Source: Chthonomonadaceae bacterium (GTDB lineage Bacteria > Armatimonadota > Chthonomonadetes > Chthonomonadales > Chthonomonadaceae). From it: 32,326 nt of DNA. Positions 875 to 14,591 of the stretch are shown in pieces (the first letter of the stretch is position 1; each line of letters starts with the position of its first letter). The position numbers and the translations under genes are program-made. The DNA lies in contig JANWZQ010000105.1 of NCBI GenBank assembly GCA_025054835.1, positions 1 through 32,326 on the forward strand, given 5' to 3'. A model generated the notes under the pieces. The model was not told the DNA's origin. It was given only the letters and a program-made list of their open reading frames with translations, and searched no databases.

Positions 875-2467
875 CTACGAGCGCGCCTCCACCGTCGCAG
901 GAGACTCTGGTCGTGGAGGTTCCAGCAGGTCCGACTTCTGCGCGAGCGGGCTGCCGTTGGCGGCATTCTCATACCATGCCTCATGCAACTCGTCGATGTC
1001 CACATGTCCGCCGAGCTTCTCGTAGGCCACGCGCCAGCTGTGCAACGCGTCGAATGCGGCGTGATCCATGAAATCGATCATCAGGTCCACGTCCACCATG
1101 GCGCCGGGTGGGATCCGTTCCAGTTGTGCGGTCAATTGCGGCACCGAGAAGAAGGACAGCGTGCCATCGATACGCACGTGCCACTTGCCGGCTCGTTCTT
1201 CTACAAGGATGTTGACGCGAGAGAGCCGCTTCAGCAACAGGATCACCGCCAGTGCAATCCCGATGCCCACGCCCGCCAGCAAGTTGATGAACACCACACT
1301 GAAGACAGTCACAAAATAGACGACCGCCTCCCGATGCTCCGACAGTTCGCGGATGTGGTGCACGTTGACCAGCCGCACTCCGACGAACACCAGCAGGCTC
1401 GCCAGAACGGCCAGTGGGATCCGCTGGAGTTGTGTGCTGAAGAACAGGGTGAACAGGACCACCCAGACGCCGTGAAGAATGGTAGACAGTCGGGTCTGCG
1501 CGCCCGAGCTGATGTTGGCGGACGTGCGCACGATGACCCCGGTGATCGGCATGCCTCCCAGCATGCCCGATACGGTGTTGCCCAGGCCCTGCCCCACCAG
1601 CTCCCTGTCCAGATTGGCCCGGGGCCCGGTGTGCAACTTATCGGTTGCCACCGCGCACAGGAGCGACTCCACGCTTGCGATCATCGCAATGGTCAGCGCG
1701 GAAACGATCAGCCCGCCGGGATCCACCCCGGTAAACTGCGGCCAGGTGTGGGCAAACAGGTTCTCGGGCAGTTTGACCCGCTCCACGTCCGTCCAGAGGA
1801 AAGTGGATACCAGTGTCCCGATCAATACAGCGACCAGTGGACCCGGGATCACTCGCAAGCGCTTTGGCGCGTATTGCCACCCGATCAGGATGCCCAGCGT
1901 GATCAGCCCCAGCATGGCCGCGTGGGTGTGCAGGCCAAGGATCTGTCCCGGCAACTCCCGCAGGTTGTCCCATGCGGAGCTATTGGGCGCCCCGCCCAGC
2001 ATGACGTGCACCTGCGCCAGCGCAATGATGATGCCAATGCCTGCCAGCATGCCATGCACCACGGCGGGCGAGATCGCCAGACAGACCCGCGCGATCCGGA
2101 GCAGACCGAAGCCAACCTGCATCAGCCCGGCCAGCACGGTAACCGCGCAGACCACCGGCCAGGGATACTTCTGTGTGAGCCCGAACACCAGCACAGTCAG
2201 CCCGGCTGCCGGCCCACTCACCTGCAGGGGCGCACCACCGAACAATCCGACAACAATGCCACCTGCAGCCGCTGCGATCAACCCACTGATGATGGGCGCT
2301 CCCGATGCGTAGGCAATCCCGATGGACAGAGGGATCGCCACGAGAAACACCACCAGGGATGCCAGAAAGTCTCTGTAGAAAGTGTGCCTGATCGAGGAAT
2401 ACCTCTGAGCAGTGCGCGCATCACTCACGGGATCCACACTCCTCTGTATGAGCCAATGAGAGATCAT
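875..2467 (-). CDS. SulP/SLC26-family anion transporter with STAS domain
   Basis: This 530-residue inner-membrane protein has the SulP layout: about 10-12 hydrophobic helices from residue 33 to about 425, then a C-terminal STAS domain (about 435-505) that normally regulates transport. Family signatures include DFLASLVVFLVAIPLSIGIA near the N-terminus, SGPAAGLTVLVFG, and VESLLCAVATDKLHTG followed by NRELVGQG-like and GNTVSGMLGGMPITG blocks. Members carry sulfate, bicarbonate, chloride or other anions; the substrate cannot be read from sequence, and no carbonic anhydrase domain is fused. The ATG at 2467 has no clear ribosome site. An in-frame GTG at 2428 has AGGAG 10 nt upstream and may be the true start, giving 517 residues. 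It is transcribed alone and faces the shared hairpin at 803-841. Confidence 0.92.
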   Translation of the reverse strand: MISHWLIQRSVDPVSDARTAQRYSSIRHTFYRDFLASLVVFLVAIPLSIGIAYASGAPIISGLIAAAAGGIVVGLFGGAPLQVSGPAAGLTVLVFGLTQKYPWPVVCAVTVLAGLMQVGFGLLRIARVCLAISPAVVHGMLAGIGIIIALAQVHVMLGGAPNSSAWDNLRELPGQILGLHTHAAMLGLITLGILIGWQYAPKRLRVIPGPLVAVLIGTLVSTFLWTDVERVKLPENLFAHTWPQFTGVDPGGLIVSALTIAMIASVESLLCAVATDKLHTGPRANLDRELVGQGLGNTVSGMLGGMPITGVIVRTSANISSGAQTRLSTILHGVWVVLFTLFFSTQLQRIPLAVLASLLVFVGVRLVNVHHIRELSEHREAVVYFVTVFSVVFINLLAGVGIGIALAVILLLKRLSRVNILVEERAGKWHVRIDGTLSFFSVPQLTAQLERIPPGAMVDVDLMIDFMDHAAFDALHSWRVAYEKLGGHVDIDELHEAWYENAANGSPLAQKSDLLEPPRPESPATVEARS

Positions 2468-2648
2468 TATGCGGCGCTATCGGGCAAGCCCATGAGCCCG
2501 GTAACAGGAGCGCCGGGAGACCGCGGCAACGTACCAGAAATCGTACCTGCATGTCCGCGTATCAGAGGAATACGACTGCGCGCGAAATTCCTGTTCCAGA
2601 AAATCCGGACTCATGCGGTGTGCCGGTATCTCAGAGCTACAGGACCGC

Positions 2649-2678
2649 TTGACGCAAACGTACATCCAGAGATACAAT
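2649..2678 (+). promoter_or_regulatory. Sigma-70-type promoter of the thioredoxin-like gene
   Basis: TTGACG at 2649-2654 and TACAAT at 2673-2678 are separated by 18 nt, close to the housekeeping consensus. The ribosome site AGGAG (2698-2702) and ATG (2711) follow within 35 nt, so the leader is short. Confidence 0.6.
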
Positions 2679-2710
2679 GCGCTCTGCGTTTCAGGAAAGG
2701 AGAAATGCTC

Positions 2711-3559
2711 ATGCGCACGTTTCTGGCTGCAAGCCTTCTGGCCGGCCTCTGCATTCTGCTGCGCCCCACGCCAGCTGACGCTGCAGAACGCATTCCATGG
2801 CAGTCCTCTCTCGCGGCCGCAATGCAACAGGCGAAGAAGACGAATCGGCTGGTGATGCTGGATTTTTACACGGACTGGTGCGCCTTCTGCAAAAAGCTGG
2901 ATCGAGAGACCTACACGCACCCGCGAGTGGTACAGCTGGCAAAACAGGTCGTCCCGGTTCGAATGAACGCCGAGAAAGAGGGGCGTACCAGCGCGCGGAA
3001 GTATGGCGTGACGGGTTTTCCCACCATTCTGTTCCTGACTCCACAGGGAAACGTTGCCGGGCGGATCGGTGGCTATCTGCCCGCAGGGCCCTTTGCGGCC
3101 GTACTGCAGCAACAGATCGATCACTTCCGCTCCATGCCGGTACTGGAAGCCCGCCTCAGAGCCAGCCCGGGCGACGTGGAGGCTGCAGCCCGGCTGGTTG
3201 TGATCTACGCCAACCAGGGCCGCAAAGCGGAAGCCCGTGCCCTGCTGGATCGCGCCGCGAAAGGAGATGGACGCAGCGGACTGCTGGCCAGAGCTTACAA
3301 CGCGGTCGCAGACACTTATCAGGAAGAGGGCCAGCTGGATCGGGCCATCGCGCTCTTTCAGAAGGCGGTGCAGACGGCCCGACATCCTGCCGATATTGCC
3401 TATGCCCATGTCAGCATCGGGACGTGTTACCTGTCCCGGGGCCAGTTTCAGCAGGCGATCCCGCCCCTGGAGGCCGCTCTGGCTACCCCGGGCGCGCCGC
3501 AGGAACTGCAGTCTGCGGCACGGCAGATGCTCACGCTGGCACGACAACGCGCTCAATAG
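2711..3559 (+). CDS. Exported thioredoxin-like protein with TPR repeats
   Basis: The 282-residue product starts with a Sec signal peptide (MRTFLAASLLAGLCILL, likely cleaved near ADAA at residues 22-25). A thioredoxin fold follows, with the redox pair C57-A-F-C60 in DWCAFCKKLDRE, and a GFPT cis-proline loop. This is closest to the thioredoxin-7/DsbD-gamma type. The C-terminal half (about residues 140-275) is helical with TPR-like pairs, for example ARAYNAVADTYQEEGQLDRA followed by IALFQKA. It probably reduces or exchanges disulfides outside the cytoplasm, with the TPR part holding a partner. ATG 2711 was chosen over ATG 2705 because AGGAG at 2698-2702 is 8 nt from 2711 but only 2 nt from 2705. 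A pfkB-type gene begins 39 nt downstream. Confidence 0.87.
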   Translation: MRTFLAASLLAGLCILLRPTPADAAERIPWQSSLAAAMQQAKKTNRLVMLDFYTDWCAFCKKLDRETYTHPRVVQLAKQVVPVRMNAEKEGRTSARKYGVTGFPTILFLTPQGNVAGRIGGYLPAGPFAAVLQQQIDHFRSMPVLEARLRASPGDVEAAARLVVIYANQGRKAEARALLDRAAKGDGRSGLLARAYNAVADTYQEEGQLDRAIALFQKAVQTARHPADIAYAHVSIGTCYLSRGQFQQAIPPLEAALATPGAPQELQSAARQMLTLARQRAQ

Positions 3560-7757: not shown

Positions 7758-9596
7758 ATGAGCGAACAACCAGCCCTGAAAGACCCTGCGCAGGTAAAAT
7801 CCATTCTTGCCACCGACTGCGGTAGCACCACGACCAAGGCCATTCTCATTGAGCAGCAACCCGATGGGCAGTACCGGCTTGTTGTGCGTGGAGAGGCCCC
7901 GACCACTGTGGAGGCTCCCTTTGACGACGTCACCGTGGGGGTGGTCAACGCCGTACGCGAAGTGGAAGAGCTGAGCGGTAAGACGATCCTCGGGGAAGAC
8001 GGCCGGCCGATCACGCCCGCCAGAGACGCGCGCACCGGTGTGGATCTCTATCTATCCACCTCCAGCGCGGGGGGTGGCCTGCAGATGACCGTAGCCGGTG
8101 TGGTCAAGGCGATGAGCGCGGAGTCGGCACAGCGAGCTGCACTGGGTGCTGGCGCGATCATCATCGATGTGATCGCTGTGGACGACGGGCGTAAAGAGTA
8201 CCAGCGCGTGGAGCGCCTGCGTCAGCTGCGCCCCGACATGATCCTGATGTCCGGGGGCACGGATGGAGGCACGGTGTCCCATCTGGTAGAGATGGCCGAA
8301 ATGCTGGTTGCCGCCGATCCGAAGCCGCGCCTGGGTATCGGACTCAAGCTGCCGGTCATCTACGCGGGCAACAGAGACGCCTACCCGCAGGTTGCCGCGC
8401 TCCTTGAAGATCGGGTAGCCCTCAAACGCGTGGAGAACCTGCGCCCCACCATGGATCGGGAGAACCTGCTACCGGCACGTGAGGCCATTCATGAGCTCTT
8501 CCTCGAACATGTGATGCAGCAGGCGCCGGGATATAACAAATTGACCACATGGACCAGCGCCGACATCATGTCCACCCCCAATGCGGTGGGGCGGATCATG
8601 GAAGAGATCGCACGGCAACGCAACATCAACGTGCTGGGTGTGGATATCGGCGGCGCTACTACCGATGTTTTCTCGGTCTTCAACGGGATTTTCAACCGCA
8701 CGGTCTCGGCCAATCTGGGCATGTCTTACTCCATCTGCAACGTGCTCACAGAGGCTGGAGTCGAGAACATCCAGCGCTGGCTTCCTTTCCGGGTGACAGA
8801 CGCGGAGCTGCGCAACCAGCTGCGCAACAAGATGATCCGCCCCACTACCATTCCCCAGCGCATGCAGGACCTGTTGATCGAGCAGGCAGTCAGCCGTGAG
8901 GCGCTGCGCCTCGCGTTTGAGCACCACAAGTCCCTGGCACGGGGCCTGACCGGCACCACCCTGGAGAAAAACATCGGCAACATCTTCGATCAGAAGGGCA
9001 CCGGACAGACTCTGGTCAACATGATGCACCTGCACATGATCGTGGGCTCGGGGGGTGTGCTCTCCCATGCGCCACGCCGCGCCCAGTCGGCCCTGATGAT
9101 GATGGATGCCTATCAGCCGGAGGGCTTTACCCTTCTAACGGTGGACTCCATCTTCATGATGCCGCAACTGGGCGTGCTCTCCGTGGTGCACCCTGTTGCG
9201 GCCACGCAGGTCTTCGAGCGCGACTGTCTGATCTATCTCGGTACCTGCATCGCGCCGGTTGGCGCAGGTCGGGAGGGCGAGCCCTGTGTCGCTGTGCAGT
9301 TCTGCGGCAAGACCGAGAACATTCCGTACGGAACGCTCCGCGTCTACCCCCTGGGCTTCAGGAACGGGCAGGATGGTGAGCCCGAAGAAGCCGAGATCGT
9401 GGTCACTCCGACGAAATCGTTCGACGTCGGCGCGGGTCGTGGCAAAGAAGTCCGCCGGGTGGTACAGGGAGGGGTAGTGGGCATCATCGTCGACACACGT
9501 GGGCGCCCGATTCAGCTCCCCCCGGATGAGCGCGTGCGGATCGCCAGGCTCAAAGAGTGGTTGCACGCCATGGGCCTGCCTGATGCCGATCAGTAG
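7758..9596 (+). CDS. MutL/GlmL-family ASKHA ATPase (glutamate mutase accessory-like)
   Basis: A 612-residue cytoplasmic protein of the MutL family (methylaspartate mutase accessory protein GlmL and relatives). The phosphate-1 loop is [15 protein letters not shown] near residues 18-32, and a second ASKHA nucleotide-binding motif is [16 protein letters not shown] (about 294-309). [11 protein letters not shown] (about 430-440) is the adenosine-type glycine loop. Classical GlmL proteins are about 460 residues; this one has an extra C-terminal domain of roughly 100 residues. GlmL proteins are thought to protect or reactivate B12-dependent glutamate mutase, but no mutase subunit or other B12 gene is in the window, so its client is unknown. 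It has its own promoter and is followed by carB after 20 nt, so readthrough is possible. Confidence 0.85.
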
Positions 9597-9616: not shown

Positions 9617-11230
9617 TTGCGCGAAGGAAACGTGAAAAAGAAGATACTGGTTATTGGTTCCGGCCCGATCCGTATCGGGCAGGGGATTGAGTTCGACTAC
9701 TGCTCCGTCCACTGCGTCTGGGCGTTGCGCGAAGCGGGCTACGAGGCCCTGATCATCAATAACAACCCGGAAACCGTCTCCACCGATTTCGACACATCAG
9801 ATCGCCTCTACTTCGACCCGCTCACCCTGGAAGACGTGTTGAACGTCATCGATCGGGAACAGCCCGAAGGGGTGATTGTGCAGTTCGGTGGTCAGACCGC
9901 GATCAATCTGGCGCGCCCGTTGCACGAGGCGGGCGTGCGGATCATTGGCTCCTCCAACGAATCGATCGATCTGGCAGAGGACCGCGACCGCTTCGAGAAG
10001 GTTCTGCGGGAGCTGGGCATTCCCAAGCCAGCCGGTCGAGGCGTTGTGAGCATGGAGGCCGCCGAACAGGTAGCGGAAGAAATCGGCTATCCGGTGCTGG
10101 TGCGCCCTTCCTACGTGCTGGGCGGGCGAGCCATGGAGATCGTATACAGCCGTGAGGAACTGCAACGCTACATGGAGTACGCGGTCGACGTGTCGCCCCG
10201 GGCGCCCATTCTGATCGACAAGTACATCCTCGGCAAAGAGGTGGAAGTCGACGTGATCTGCGACGGGCGGGAGTGCCTGCTACCCGGCATCATGGAGCAC
10301 ATCGAACGCGCCGGCGTGCACTCCGGCGACAGCATGGCCGTCTACCCGCCTCAATCGCTGTCGCCGCACCTGATCGAGCAGATCGTGCACAGCGCTACCC
10401 GTCTCGCCCTCCGTCTGGAGGTGCGCGGGTTGCTCAACATCCAGTTCGTGGTGGACAGCCAGACTGACACGGCGCTCGTGCTGGAGGCCAACCCGCGCGC
10501 CTCGCGCACCGTTCCCTACCTGTCCAAAATCACCGGTGTGCCCATGGTGAAGATCGCCACACACATCATGCTGGGCCGGACCCTGCAGGAACAGGGGTAT
10601 CGCGGTGGTCTCTACCCGGACAGTCCCAGTATTGCTGTGAAGGCCCCTGTCTTCTCCTTCCTGAAATTGCACCGCGTGGACATCAACCTCGGTCCAGAGA
10701 TGAAGTCCACCGGCGAAATCATGGGCGTGGACACCGACTACCCGCGCGCGCTCTACAAAGCGATGGTTGCCTCCGGCATCGATGTGCCGACCGAGGGAAG
10801 TCTGGTTGCCACCATCGCCGATCCGGATAAACCGGAGGCGTTGCCCATCATTCAGGGTTTTGCAGAACTCGGGTTCCGTGTGTTCGCCACGGAGGGCACG
10901 GCGCGCTTCCTGCAGGAACATGGCATTCCCGCACAGGCTGTCAAGAAGTTACACGAAGGCGAAGACAACATTGAACATCTGATCCGGAGCGGGCAGATCT
11001 CTCTGTTGCTCAACACGCTCTCCACCAACAAGCGCATCGAGCGCGAAGCGGCGCGGATCCGGCGCGCCTCGGTAGAAGCCGGTGTGCCCTGCCTGACCAG
11101 TCTCGACACGGCACGCGCCCTGCTGCTGGCCCTCTCGGCGCGCGCGCGCGGAGAGCCCTTCGCCCTGGCCACTGTTGACGAGTATCTGCACGCTCCCGGA
11201 TCCCTCAAAGGGAGCGCACTTCATGGGTGA
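9617..11230 (+). CDS. carB: Carbamoyl-phosphate synthase large chain, C-terminal half (split carB)
   Basis: The 537-residue protein matches the second half of CarB, which is normally about 1070 residues. It starts with the pre-ATP-grasp block [16 protein letters not shown] and [19 protein letters not shown]. It continues through an ATP-grasp domain ([37 protein letters not shown]) and ends in an MGS-like allosteric domain ([19 protein letters not shown]). This half phosphorylates carbamate to carbamoyl phosphate for arginine and pyrimidine synthesis. The N-terminal half, which makes carboxyphosphate and carbamate, is not upstream: the preceding gene is MutL-like with only a 20-nt gap. The TTG at 9617 has GAGGA 9 nt upstream; a GTG at 9632 with AAGGA 3 nt upstream is the alternative. 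Its stop overlaps the next start. Confidence 0.92.
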
Positions 11231-12404
11231 ACAGATCGCCAGAAGGCTTTTGCGGATCCTTTCCCTGTGGTATTCCACGCCTTTGTGGAGCGCATCGGGA
11301 ACTCTGCTCCTGTTCCTGCTGACCTCCTCCGTCGCGGGCGCACGCCCCGACTACGCCCGTAAGGAGGGGCGCGCCTGCCAGTACTGCCACGTGAGCGCCA
11401 GCCCGGGATCGTTCGATCGAGCGACCGGGAGACGTGAGACGACTGCCCGCAACGAGCGGGGCCAGTACTATGCGGCGCACAACTACTCCTTTGAGGGCTA
11501 TATGGAACGGGTTGCGGCAGGGCGCCCACGCATGCCCTCCTTTCGTTACCTGTGGAAGGTCGATTTCCCGGACCTGCCGCGCCGCATCGCGGTTGCGGAC
11601 GTGACGGGCGACGGGCAGCCCCGCCTCGTCATGCTGCACGAAAAGCCCGGTGAGAAGGACATGGCAGTCCTCACAGTTCGCCGGTGGAACGGTAAAGAGT
11701 TCGTTATCGAGTTCACAGCGGACGTCAAGGCGCCCCCTGCGAGCATGCAGGTAGGGCACTTCGCCGGCAAGAACCGCCCTGCCGTCATCGTGACCGGCGA
11801 CGCCCTGTGGAGCTGGAACGGCAAGACCTTCCTGCGCACCCCGGCTCCTGCTACCCTGCCACTGTTCGGCGCGGCGCGTTTGAAAACCGGCGAGGACCGC
11901 CTGTTGCTGGCAGAGACACCGCAACGCATCGTGGCGCATCAGGTGCATCTGACCGGCGATCGATGGCTCAGCGCGCCCATGGACCCTCCAGCCCCCGCGC
12001 AGGTGCTCTGGGAAGACATGCACGCCACCCCGGATTTCTTCGACCGCATGGAGATGCCTCCCCTGCTCGGCAGCGGCGGCATCATTGGCCTCTGGGACAT
12101 CCGGCAGGACGGGCTGCTCGCGCTCTACCACGTCCGCCTTGATCAGGACTTCGATGTCAGGCCGGATACGCAAAAATCGGGCCAACCACAATTCATTCTG
12201 AAAGCAGAGTACTATGCCGTTGCGTTGCTGGACGCCCGGAGCACACTGGGTGTGCCATTCTGGACGACCCCCCGCCTGGAAACCCGTCCGCTGGACATCG
12301 CCCTGCAGAGTCCGCGTGAGGACCGCAAGCCCGGCCTGTTGATCCTGACCGCTGAACCGAAAGACAGCAAAACGCGCACCCTGCACTTCTTCGGTCTGGA
12401 GTGA
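11223..12404 (+). CDS. Exported protein with single c-type haem motif and repeat-propeller-like region
   Basis: A 393-residue product. The signal or anchor helix spans about residues 22-40 ([17 protein letters not shown]). Right after it lies a CXXCH haem attachment site, C52-Q-Y-C55-H56, in [15 protein letters not shown], so the mature N-terminus likely carries covalent haem outside the cytoplasm. From about residue 100 on there are FG-GAP/VCBS-like units, for example [20 protein letters not shown]. This hints at a beta-propeller. No second CXXCH is present. ATG 11223 is supported by AAAGGGAG 8 nt upstream and overlaps the carB stop by 8 nt (ATGGGTGA), indicating translational coupling. The role is unknown; electron transfer or haem-based sensing are both possible. 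Confidence 0.75.
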
Positions 12405-12411
12405 CTCATCC

Positions 12412-13614
12412 ATGCAACGCGTCCGCGGCCGTGGGCTGGGAGTCGGAACCGTGCTGGGCACCGCGGCGGTAGTGCGTACCCGGAGCGGCATACCGATCCT
12501 GCCCCCCATGCCGCGACGTCTGGCAGAGGATCGCGCACGCCATCGCTCGTCGGAACCGCCACACGTGATCCTCATTGCCGACGACTACGATATGGCACAG
12601 AGTGTGGCCCACTCGCTCCCATGGGGACGTGTGGTCGGCATCGTTGCGGCCTCCGCGCCACCGGACCTGCCGGCATCGGACCTGCCCGCGGTGGTGGATG
12701 TGCCAATCCAGGCAGAGCGCATGACGAACGACATGTTGATCCTGCTGGACGCAGGACGCGGTCTGGTGCTGATCGACCCCGAGGCGGCACTGGTCGCGCA
12801 GTATCAGGCGGAGGCTGAGCGCATCGCTCCCAGACGGCGCCTGTTTCTGGAGGGCGCGCATCTGCCCGCGCATACCCTGGACGGCGTGGTCGTTCAGGTG
12901 ATCGCCGAGGCCAGTGAACCCGCAGTGACCGCAGGAGCCGATGCGCTCTACCTGACCCTGCGATCCGAACCGCCAGTTTCTGGCGTCCCGCCTCCCGCCC
13001 CGGAGCAGCAGCTGGAGGAAGCCGTCCGGGTAGCTGCAGGCAAGCCTCTGTTCCTGATGCACACCGAAACGATCCCCGCCGCTGCCATGGTGCAGGCGGC
13101 CACTCGGGTGGATCTGGTGCTCGTGGTACCGGTGCAGAACGACCCGTCACGCCTGACGCAGGTGGCCACCGATCTGATCACCGCCGAGACCCTCTGTCAG
13201 GAGCAGGGGAAGATCTGTCATCTGCCTCTGCTCGCTGCCGCAGTCACCATGGACTTCTCCGAAGCAGACGAGGCACAGGACATCACGCGCATCGAGACAC
13301 TGGCGGCCAGAGGTGCCGCCCGGGTTCTGGCGCAGATCAACCTCGATTCACCCCGCTGCGTGCGCCGTTTTGCGGATGTGGTTGCCGCTGCAACCAGTGC
13401 GCTCCTGCCGGTGTTCGTCCATGTGGATGAGCACACATTGCCCGGCGCTCCCCTGGAAGAGATCGTGCGCACCCTGCTCGGTGCCGGCGTCTCCGGGTTA
13501 CTGACGTGGCACGGGCAGGTTGCTACGCTCAAGGAGCTGATCCGCACGTTGAACGTTGCCGAGTGTCGGGAAGCCCTGCTGCGTCAGTTCGTAGCCGACG
13601 GAGAGATGCCATGA
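12412..13614 (+). CDS. Degenerate PTS enzyme I-like (PEP-utilising) protein lacking catalytic residues
   Basis: The 400-residue product follows the order of PTS enzyme I. The N-terminal strand (GRGLGVGTVLGTAAVV, 6-21) resembles the enzyme I ASPGIAIG start. Residues 51-131 (ILIADDYD...LPAVVDVP...GLVLIDPEAALVAQYQ) resemble the phosphohistidine swivel domain. Residues 175-395 (GADALYLTLRSE, then a TIM-barrel-like region, ending GVSGLLTWHGQVATLKELIR) resemble the PEP-binding barrel. The HPr-binding helical domain is absent, the GGRTSHTAI active-histidine segment is replaced by AASAPPDLPASD, and the catalytic CGE motif reads VHVDEH. It therefore probably cannot transfer phosphate and may bind a ligand or partner. 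GGAG lies 10 nt before the ATG; its TGA overlaps the next ATG. The assignment comes from reading motifs by eye. Confidence 0.62.
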   Translation: MQRVRGRGLGVGTVLGTAAVVRTRSGIPILPPMPRRLAEDRARHRSSEPPHVILIADDYDMAQSVAHSLPWGRVVGIVAASAPPDLPASDLPAVVDVPIQAERMTNDMLILLDAGRGLVLIDPEAALVAQYQAEAERIAPRRRLFLEGAHLPAHTLDGVVVQVIAEASEPAVTAGADALYLTLRSEPPVSGVPPPAPEQQLEEAVRVAAGKPLFLMHTETIPAAAMVQAATRVDLVLVVPVQNDPSRLTQVATDLITAETLCQEQGKICHLPLLAAAVTMDFSEADEAQDITRIETLAARGAARVLAQINLDSPRCVRRFADVVAAATSALLPVFVHVDEHTLPGAPLEEIVRTLLGAGVSGLLTWHGQVATLKELIRTLNVAECREALLRQFVADGEMP

Positions 13615-14591
13615 GTCGGATTGTTGTACTGGTGATGCTGGATCCCGATGATCCCGACGCGCATCCCTTCCGGCAGCGCATCGCGCAGGATCCGGAACTG
13701 GCCGACCGGGTGGACCTGCGTTTCGCAACCGGCGAGCAGATTACAACAGCCATTGCCGACGCGGAAGTGGCGGTCGGTGCGCACCTGCCTGCGGAGCGGC
13801 TCGCGCAGGCCCCTCGCCTGAGATGGATGAGCTTCTGGAGCGCGGGGCTGGACGGTAAGATCACACCGGAGCTGCTGCAACGTGGCCTGATCCTGACCAA
13901 CGCCAGTGGCGTGCACGGCCCCAATATCGCGGAGCACGTGCTGGCCTGTATGTTGATGTTCACCCGGCGCATGCACCTGTACATGCGCAGGCAGATCGCC
14001 GGGGAGTGGTGGCGCCAGAGTGACGCGGAAGAACTGACAGGTCAGACACTGGGCATTGTGGGGCTGGGCCGAATTGGAGAGGCGCTGACAGTCCGGGCGA
14101 AGGCGTTCGGTATGCGGGTCATCGCGACCAAACGCAACCCGGGCGCACGCTACGATCCCGCGGCCACCCCCGACGCCCTGCTACCTCCGGAGCGCCTGCA
14201 TCACCTGCTCTCCGAAGCCGATCACGTGTGCGTCGCGGTTCCCTACACGCCAGAGACTCATCATCTCATCAATGCGGAGGCACTGGCGCAGATGAAGCCC
14301 ACGGCCTACCTGTACAACATCGCGCGCGGCAAAGTCGTTGACGAGCCAGCGTTGATCGCAGCGCTGCAGGAGGGCCGGATCGCTGGCGCTGGCCTGGACG
14401 TGTTCGAGACGGAACCACTGCCGCCAGATAGTCCGCTCTGGCGTATGGAAAACGTGATCCTCACCCCGCACGTCTCCGGGTTAACGCCCCACTACTTCGC
14501 TCGAACCGCTGAACTGTTTGCCGAGAACCTCAGGCGCTATCTACGCGGCGAGCCCCTGCAGAACCGGTACGATCCGGAAAAGGGCTACTGA
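13611..14591 (+). CDS. NAD-dependent D-2-hydroxyacid dehydrogenase
   Basis: A 326-residue cytoplasmic oxidoreductase of usual family length. The Rossmann motif LGIVGLGRIGEALTVRAKAF (about 145-164) is followed by the family block PTAYLYNIARGKVVDEPALI, which holds the substrate-binding Arg. DVFETEPLP carries the catalytic Glu and ILTPHVSG the proton-relay His. It should interconvert a 2-keto acid and a D-2-hydroxy acid with NAD(P)H; the overall look is of the glyoxylate/hydroxypyruvate reductase group, but the substrate is not certain. ATG 13611 overlaps the previous TGA in ATGA, with GGAGA about 7 nt upstream. Its stop lies 4 nt from the convergent aldehyde dehydrogenase stop. Confidence 0.92.
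   Translation: MSRIVVLVMLDPDDPDAHPFRQRIAQDPELADRVDLRFATGEQITTAIADAEVAVGAHLPAERLAQAPRLRWMSFWSAGLDGKITPELLQRGLILTNASGVHGPNIAEHVLACMLMFTRRMHLYMRRQIAGEWWRQSDAEELTGQTLGIVGLGRIGEALTVRAKAFGMRVIATKRNPGARYDPAATPDALLPPERLHHLLSEADHVCVAVPYTPETHHLINAEALAQMKPTAYLYNIARGKVVDEPALIAALQEGRIAGAGLDVFETEPLPPDSPLWRMENVILTPHVSGLTPHYFARTAELFAENLRRYLRGEPLQNRYDPEKGY

Follow-up and report, generated by a model that had tools for sequence, protein, structure and literature searches.

An Enzyme I-like protein family without catalytic residues in Armatimonadota, most likely a pseudoenzyme with a non-phosphotransfer role

The locus and the architecture of the encoded protein

The window analyzed here, i.e., the whole stretch of 32,326 nucleotides of contig JANWZQ010000105.1 from a Chthonomonadaceae bacterium (phylum Armatimonadota), contains an open reading frame with an ATG start whose product is related to Enzyme I (EI) of the phosphotransferase system (PTS). 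The parts of the encoded protein and the downstream gene are compiled in Table 1. The stop codon of the EI-like gene overlaps the start codon of the D-2-hydroxyacid dehydrogenase gene in the sequence ATGA at 13611-13614, and stop/start codon overlaps of this kind are frequent in operons containing EI-like genes. The N-terminal strand module was aligned to EI residues 4-24 by the family profile, an assignment that is weak when taken alone, and in the structural superposition with VIA residue 1 of the model was paired with EI residues 1-2. Where the window protein has only a short link, EI carries the HPr-binding helical domain of approximately 120 amino acids.

Table 1. Features of the EI-like gene and its downstream neighbor (positions refer to the window, residues to the encoded protein).
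Feature	Position	Strand	Evidence
EI-like pseudoenzyme gene (400 aa)	12412..13614	+	Open reading frame, EI profiles, structural model, fold search, family in 83/291 genomes
N-terminal strand module, residues 1-30, MQRVRGRGLGVGTVLGTAAVV..	12412..12501	+	Counterpart of the first strand of EI
Short link, residues 31-50	12502..12561	+	No PF05524 match; 34-member alignment
Swivel (phosphohistidine) domain core, residues 51-124	12562..12783	+	hhalign against 11 EIs; DSSP of the model
Site of the deleted His189 segment, residues 82-90	12655..12681	+	Columns of the EI TSH motif without aligned residue
Swivel-barrel linker, residues 125-158, YQAE..R..H.PA.T.DG	12784..12885	+	Highest conservation within the family
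Degenerate (beta-alpha)8 PEP-binding-type barrel, residues 159-395	12886..13596	+	Eight strands in the model; superposition; EI ligand residues absent
His337 codon, at the position of catalytic Cys502 in EI	13420..13422	+	Profile alignment
D-2-hydroxyacid dehydrogenase	13611..14591	+	NCBIfam NF041369, E 1e-74; orthologue adjacent in several other families

Further genes of the window lie upstream. A secreted-looking protein with a CQYCH motif, for which no Pfam or NCBIfam match was found, is encoded at 11175-12404 and ends 7 bases before the EI-like gene. The frame at 9617-11230 matches only the second half of CarB, the large subunit of carbamoyl-phosphate synthase (positions 550-1050); CarB appears to be split in this genome, and a 530-aa ATP-grasp frame on contig C67 is a candidate for the remaining half. 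The frame at 7758-9596 encodes a GlmL/MutL-like protein whose matches to three models all fall below the curated cut-offs, and at 983-3559 a large protein is encoded in which TPR repeats follow a thioredoxin/DsbD-like domain.

Sequence homology and predicted fold

Searched alone, the window protein gave no Pfam match, NCBIfam EI models matched its residues 40-169 (E 2e-7 and 3e-7), and a phmmer search of the PDB identified E. coli EI with an E-value of 3e-4. An alignment of 34 family members was used for profile comparisons. The Pfam domains PF00391 and PF02896, for which the window protein alone was negative, were matched by 20 and 10 of the 34 members, respectively, and the EI model TIGR01417 was matched individually by 32 of them (best E 6e-25). 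Run against the PDB, the family profile identified EI of Staphylococcus carnosus (E 1.4e-31), with a match spanning the swivel, the linker and both barrel halves, while the same profile reached an E-value of only 5e-5 for PEP synthase. Profile-to-profile comparison with hhalign against a reference set of eleven intact Armatimonadota EIs resulted in a probability of 99.7 (E 3.5e-27).

The AlphaFold2 model of the window protein (pLDDT 91.2, pTM 0.76) predicts N-terminal strands, a swivel domain and eight barrel strands, with part of the swivel-barrel linker being the least confident region. EI structures were the best Foldseek matches (E 2.5e-16). With VIA the model matched whole EI with a Z-score of about 21 and the EI C-terminal domain with a Z-score of 20.8 (rmsd 3.5 A over 233 residues), while Z-scores of 15-16 were obtained for pyruvate phosphate dikinase (PPDK). 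The large rmsd toward whole EI is consistent with a different orientation of the swivel in the model. A member of the divergent clade f35, modeled with a pLDDT of 83.8, matched EI with a Z-score of 22.6 and an rmsd of 2.7 A over 243 residues. The original prediction that the protein keeps the EI domain order of N-terminal strand, swivel and barrel is therefore borne out by the profiles, by the model and by the best PDB matches, and the swivel and the (beta-alpha)8 barrel are predicted to follow each other as in PTS EI.

Loss of the catalytic residues

Ten catalytic columns were followed in E. coli numbering (H189, R296, R332, D335, R358, E431, N454, D455, R465, and C502), all of which are invariant across the eleven EIs of the phylum. 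Of these columns, five have been lost by deletion in the 34-member family, and at the remaining five no residue is conserved. The GGxxSHxxI segment with the active-site histidine, present in 11/11 phylum EIs, is deleted in the family alignment and no aligned member keeps the histidine. The PEP and Mg ligands R296, R332, R358, E431, N454, D455, and R465 are deleted or unconserved, with an equivalent of R296 only scattered among members, e.g., in the locus L033. The Cys502 column is occupied by His337 in the window protein and by a cysteine in L033 only. The HPr-binding domain PF05524 was detected neither in the window protein nor anywhere in its order. Short motifs that recall the RTE motif of EI, i.e., LRTE in L110 and L118 and LRSE in the window protein, were rejected as they are off column, the arginine of the window protein by one residue. 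Columns of structural importance are retained: D113, G175, A176, and K374 in 34/34 members, T155 in 33/34 and G117 in 31/34.

The absence of the HPr-binding domain, of the active histidine segment and of the catalytic cysteine motif, as originally predicted, was thus confirmed, and neither the histidine nor the cysteine motif of the window protein is intact in the profile alignment. The losses go beyond these three sites, as R332, D335, R358, E431, N454, D455, and R465 are also affected. The protein does not qualify as PPDK or PEP synthase either: no ATP-grasp domain was found by Pfam within its 400 amino acids and the CGGxTSH-type histidine segment is deleted. The catalytic death of the EI-like family is well supported.

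Distribution in the phylum and absence of the phosphotransferase system from the order of the window

The family profile matched 100 of the 291 Armatimonadota genomes. The EI-like family itself was assigned to 83/291 genomes, a count that leaves out genomes with only long EI proteins or weak matches; orthologues in other members of the phylum, as the original prediction had proposed to look for, are thus present. A search with single sequences was positive for 44 of 101 relatives, a few intact EIs included. A scan of the genome contigs with the window protein as single query revealed no relative, and none was found among plasmids, viral contigs, and PHROGs.

HPr and EIIA (EIIA-2) were detected in none of the 31 genomes of the order to which the window belongs, and no match to the EI N-domain was obtained in the order; PTS-bearing control genomes were positive. 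PEP-utilizers_C occurs once per genome in most genomes of the order, mostly in frames of PPDK size, and in a few genomes not at all; in the genome of the window the sole protein with this domain is an open frame of approximately 930 amino acids, i.e., of PPDK size. Real EI is encoded in at least 11 genomes of the phylum, of which only G040 and G251 also carry the short family. The absence of the PTS was also reported for Fimbriimonas ginsengisoli from another lineage of Armatimonadota (PMC4072686). The term paralogue, used for the protein in the original prediction, does not quite apply, as its genome yielded no intact EI, and a paralogue acting beside a working EI is ruled out for this genome, in which HPr, the EI N-domain and intact EI were all not found.

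Phylogeny, selection and a member with vestiges of the active site

Phylogenetically, the family forms one clade versus EI and PPDK (support 100/99). The tree leaves EI paraphyletic, and it accommodates a placement of the family inside EI as well as beside it. The ratio dN/dS was 0.04-0.13 in ten close pairs and 0.27 in one more distant pair; the EI-like gene is therefore under purifying selection. The family accordingly combines the features of a pseudoenzyme, as the fold is kept, the catalytic residues are lost and selection is purifying.

It had also been asked whether the same residues are lost in all orthologues. The loss is family-wide but incomplete in places, as L033 (4629-5882, genome G040) retains vestiges: within LLRQE its R296/E298 columns are still occupied by Arg and Glu, and YLCGRMS provides a Cys at C502, while its histidine segment is absent. 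Its host genome also encodes intact EI and HPr. In the tree L033 is deep-branching and placed apart from other members, next to the EI/PPDK side, so that it looks like a transitional form supporting decay from an EI-like ancestor.

Operon setting

The neighborhood of the EI-like gene was surveyed for 53 loci from eleven families. The D-2-hydroxyacid dehydrogenase is located directly downstream in 20/53 loci (f1, f15, f19, and f39), and LptC/LptA-like genes, identified based on PF06835 and PF03968, are located directly upstream in 16/53 (f6, f13, f15, f24, f39, and f40). Additional loci of f15 and f19 raise the numbers for both linkages, and several of them show LptC, LptA, EI-like gene and dehydrogenase in one row. 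A binomial chance estimate for these adjacencies is illustrative only because loci that inherited one ancestral operon violate the assumption behind it. In all 9 genomes checked, G000 included, the neighboring dehydrogenase was the best match of the genome, and the one f1 genome lacking the EI-like gene (G008) also lacks a close dehydrogenase orthologue. However, three genomes (G018, G206, and G239) carry the EI-like family and no close dehydrogenase orthologue, and G027 carries the dehydrogenase and not the family.

In f1, LptC/A are not adjacent to the EI-like gene; usually an ABC transporter set (ATPase c2 and permease c4) and a PqqD-domain protein are encoded upstream, an arrangement not found in the window. 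In f35 (L114, L116, L117, and L118) the upstream genes read as a MoxR-type ATPase and a DUF58-type gene. As the upstream genes of f1 and f35 differ, the neighbors are not constant, and in f3 neither LptC/A nor the dehydrogenase lies beside the EI-like gene. In L031 (5893-7296) and other f6 loci, LptC-type and LptA-type matches fall into one frame, so that LptC and LptA seem to be fused in that genus. An apparent fusion of 667 amino acids in G102 turned out to be none: the open frame is extended and overlaps a separate LptA frame.

Conservation pattern of the barrel and the linker

The two ends of the barrel strands are conserved to a different extent. In the family the N-face is more conserved than the C-face (0.45 versus 0.25, p 2e-6), whereas EI shows the opposite direction (0.64 versus 0.74, p 0.005), the contrast being more marked in the family than in EI. 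The C-face comprises the ligand-side, i.e., catalytic, ends of the barrel strands, where EI binds PEP. Within the family, conservation peaks in the swivel-barrel linker with Y131-Q132, R143, H150, T155, and D157, of which Q132, R143, H150, T155, and D157 are near-invariant in the 34-member alignment; the mean JS value of residues 108-158 is 0.49. Conservation of the N-face may reflect folding needs alone.

Proposed function and alternative explanations

A non-phosphotransfer role of the EI-like family, as originally predicted, is strongly supported because the losses are family-wide and extend beyond three sites and because the order of the window has neither HPr nor EIIA. A dead EI fold that is kept under strong selection without a PTS points to a new non-catalytic job. 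Most likely, with a probability of roughly 0.6, the protein is an EI-derived pseudoenzyme of a phylum-wide family acting as a non-catalytic scaffold or regulatory subunit. We infer a course of events in which the PTS was lost or became dispensable first. A protein with EI-like swivel and barrel and without the HPr-binding domain would then have shed the phosphohistidine, PEP, Mg and cysteine residues, while the fold was retained and the gene maintained by purifying selection. A partner would be held by the barrel N-face, the swivel-barrel linker and the C-terminal helices. The D-2-hydroxyacid dehydrogenase, whose gene is translationally coupled, is the first candidate partner; the envelope (LptC/LptA) module of the same operon could be a further one in many lineages. 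That the EI fold serves as a conserved cytoplasmic scaffold coupling 2-keto-acid reduction by the adjacent dehydrogenase to LptC/LptA lipid export to the outer membrane, and thereby metabolism to the envelope, specifically in Armatimonadota, is a rather doubtful extension. The scaffold reading itself has to accommodate neighbors that are not universal, as seen for f35, f3, and f1 and for G018, G206, G239, and G027, and an N-face pattern possibly due to folding only.

The original prediction left a ligand sensor and a scaffold side by side; the scaffold fits better because the barrel ends that form the PEP face in EI are the least conserved ones. PEP and pyruvate are ligands of EI barrels, and the family of the co-encoded dehydrogenase acts on 2-keto acids, so a barrel binding PEP, pyruvate or another keto acid might signal to the dehydrogenase or the envelope system by movement of the swivel, and the hinge linker is indeed the most conserved part. 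As the PEP and Mg ligands are all gone and conservation is lowest at the ligand-side strand ends, no common pocket is visible, making such a metabolite sensor unlikely. A barrel with a different, newly gained catalytic site is less probable again because the PEP site is no longer conserved. Although (beta-alpha)8 barrels gain new activities readily and the linker has near-invariant H150 and R143, no conserved polar cluster exists at the C-terminal strand ends, and most of the conserved polar residues are found where swivel and barrel join.

Two further alternatives concern origin and functionality. PPDK swivel domains also have no helical insert, and this, together with the structural Z-scores of 15-16 and the paraphyly of EI, would fit a descent from a PPDK/PEP-synthase-like swivel-barrel protein in which the HPr domain was never present. 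The profile E-values (1e-31 for EI versus 5e-5 for PEP synthase), the Z-scores of 20-22 for EI compared to 15-16 for PPDK, and the EI-like RxE and CG motifs in place in L033 render this origin improbable. A decaying relic without function, suggested by the loss of every known catalytic residue, is ruled out for practical purposes by dN/dS values of about 0.1 in close pairs and by the conserved operons; in addition, the frame is open in most members, and almost all genomes of the order carry one copy.

Relation to known systems and significance

With PTS EI (PtsI/PtsP; TIGR01417, PF05524+PF00391+PF02896) the family shares the domain order, the swivel/barrel fold, the linker and structural residues; it differs in having no HPr-binding domain, active histidine, PEP/Mg ligands or catalytic cysteine, and no HPr or EIIA was detected in the order of the window. 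PPDK and PEP synthase belong to the same swivel-barrel superfamily and have a swivel without the helical insert, but the family has no ATP-grasp domain, matches them much more weakly in sequence and forms a separate clade. Regulatory PTS without permeases were described, such as the PTS-Ntr of proteobacteria (PMC13104625) and the incomplete PTS of Brucella (PMC2937029). There, PTS parts are likewise retained for regulation and not for sugar uptake; however, their phosphotransfer chains are active, while here the carriers are absent and the EI homologue has no catalytic residues. Pseudoenzymes in general also show a fold that is selected for after catalytic residues have been lost (PMC5106787). 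The original prediction considered the protein as not described as a family, and in the open-licence literature no description of an EI-derived pseudoenzyme family was found, which is weak evidence of absence. Pseudoenzymes are known as a class, and an EI-fold family in PTS-less genomes would be new.

Automatic annotation is likely to label such proteins as PEP-protein phosphotransferase, and the bacteria would therefore be credited with a PTS step that they lack. A testable gene set for a new role of the fold is formed by LptC, LptA, the EI-like protein and the 2-hydroxyacid dehydrogenase. Across much of the phylum, the entry enzyme of the PTS outlives the PTS itself: the fold stays and the chemistry is gone.
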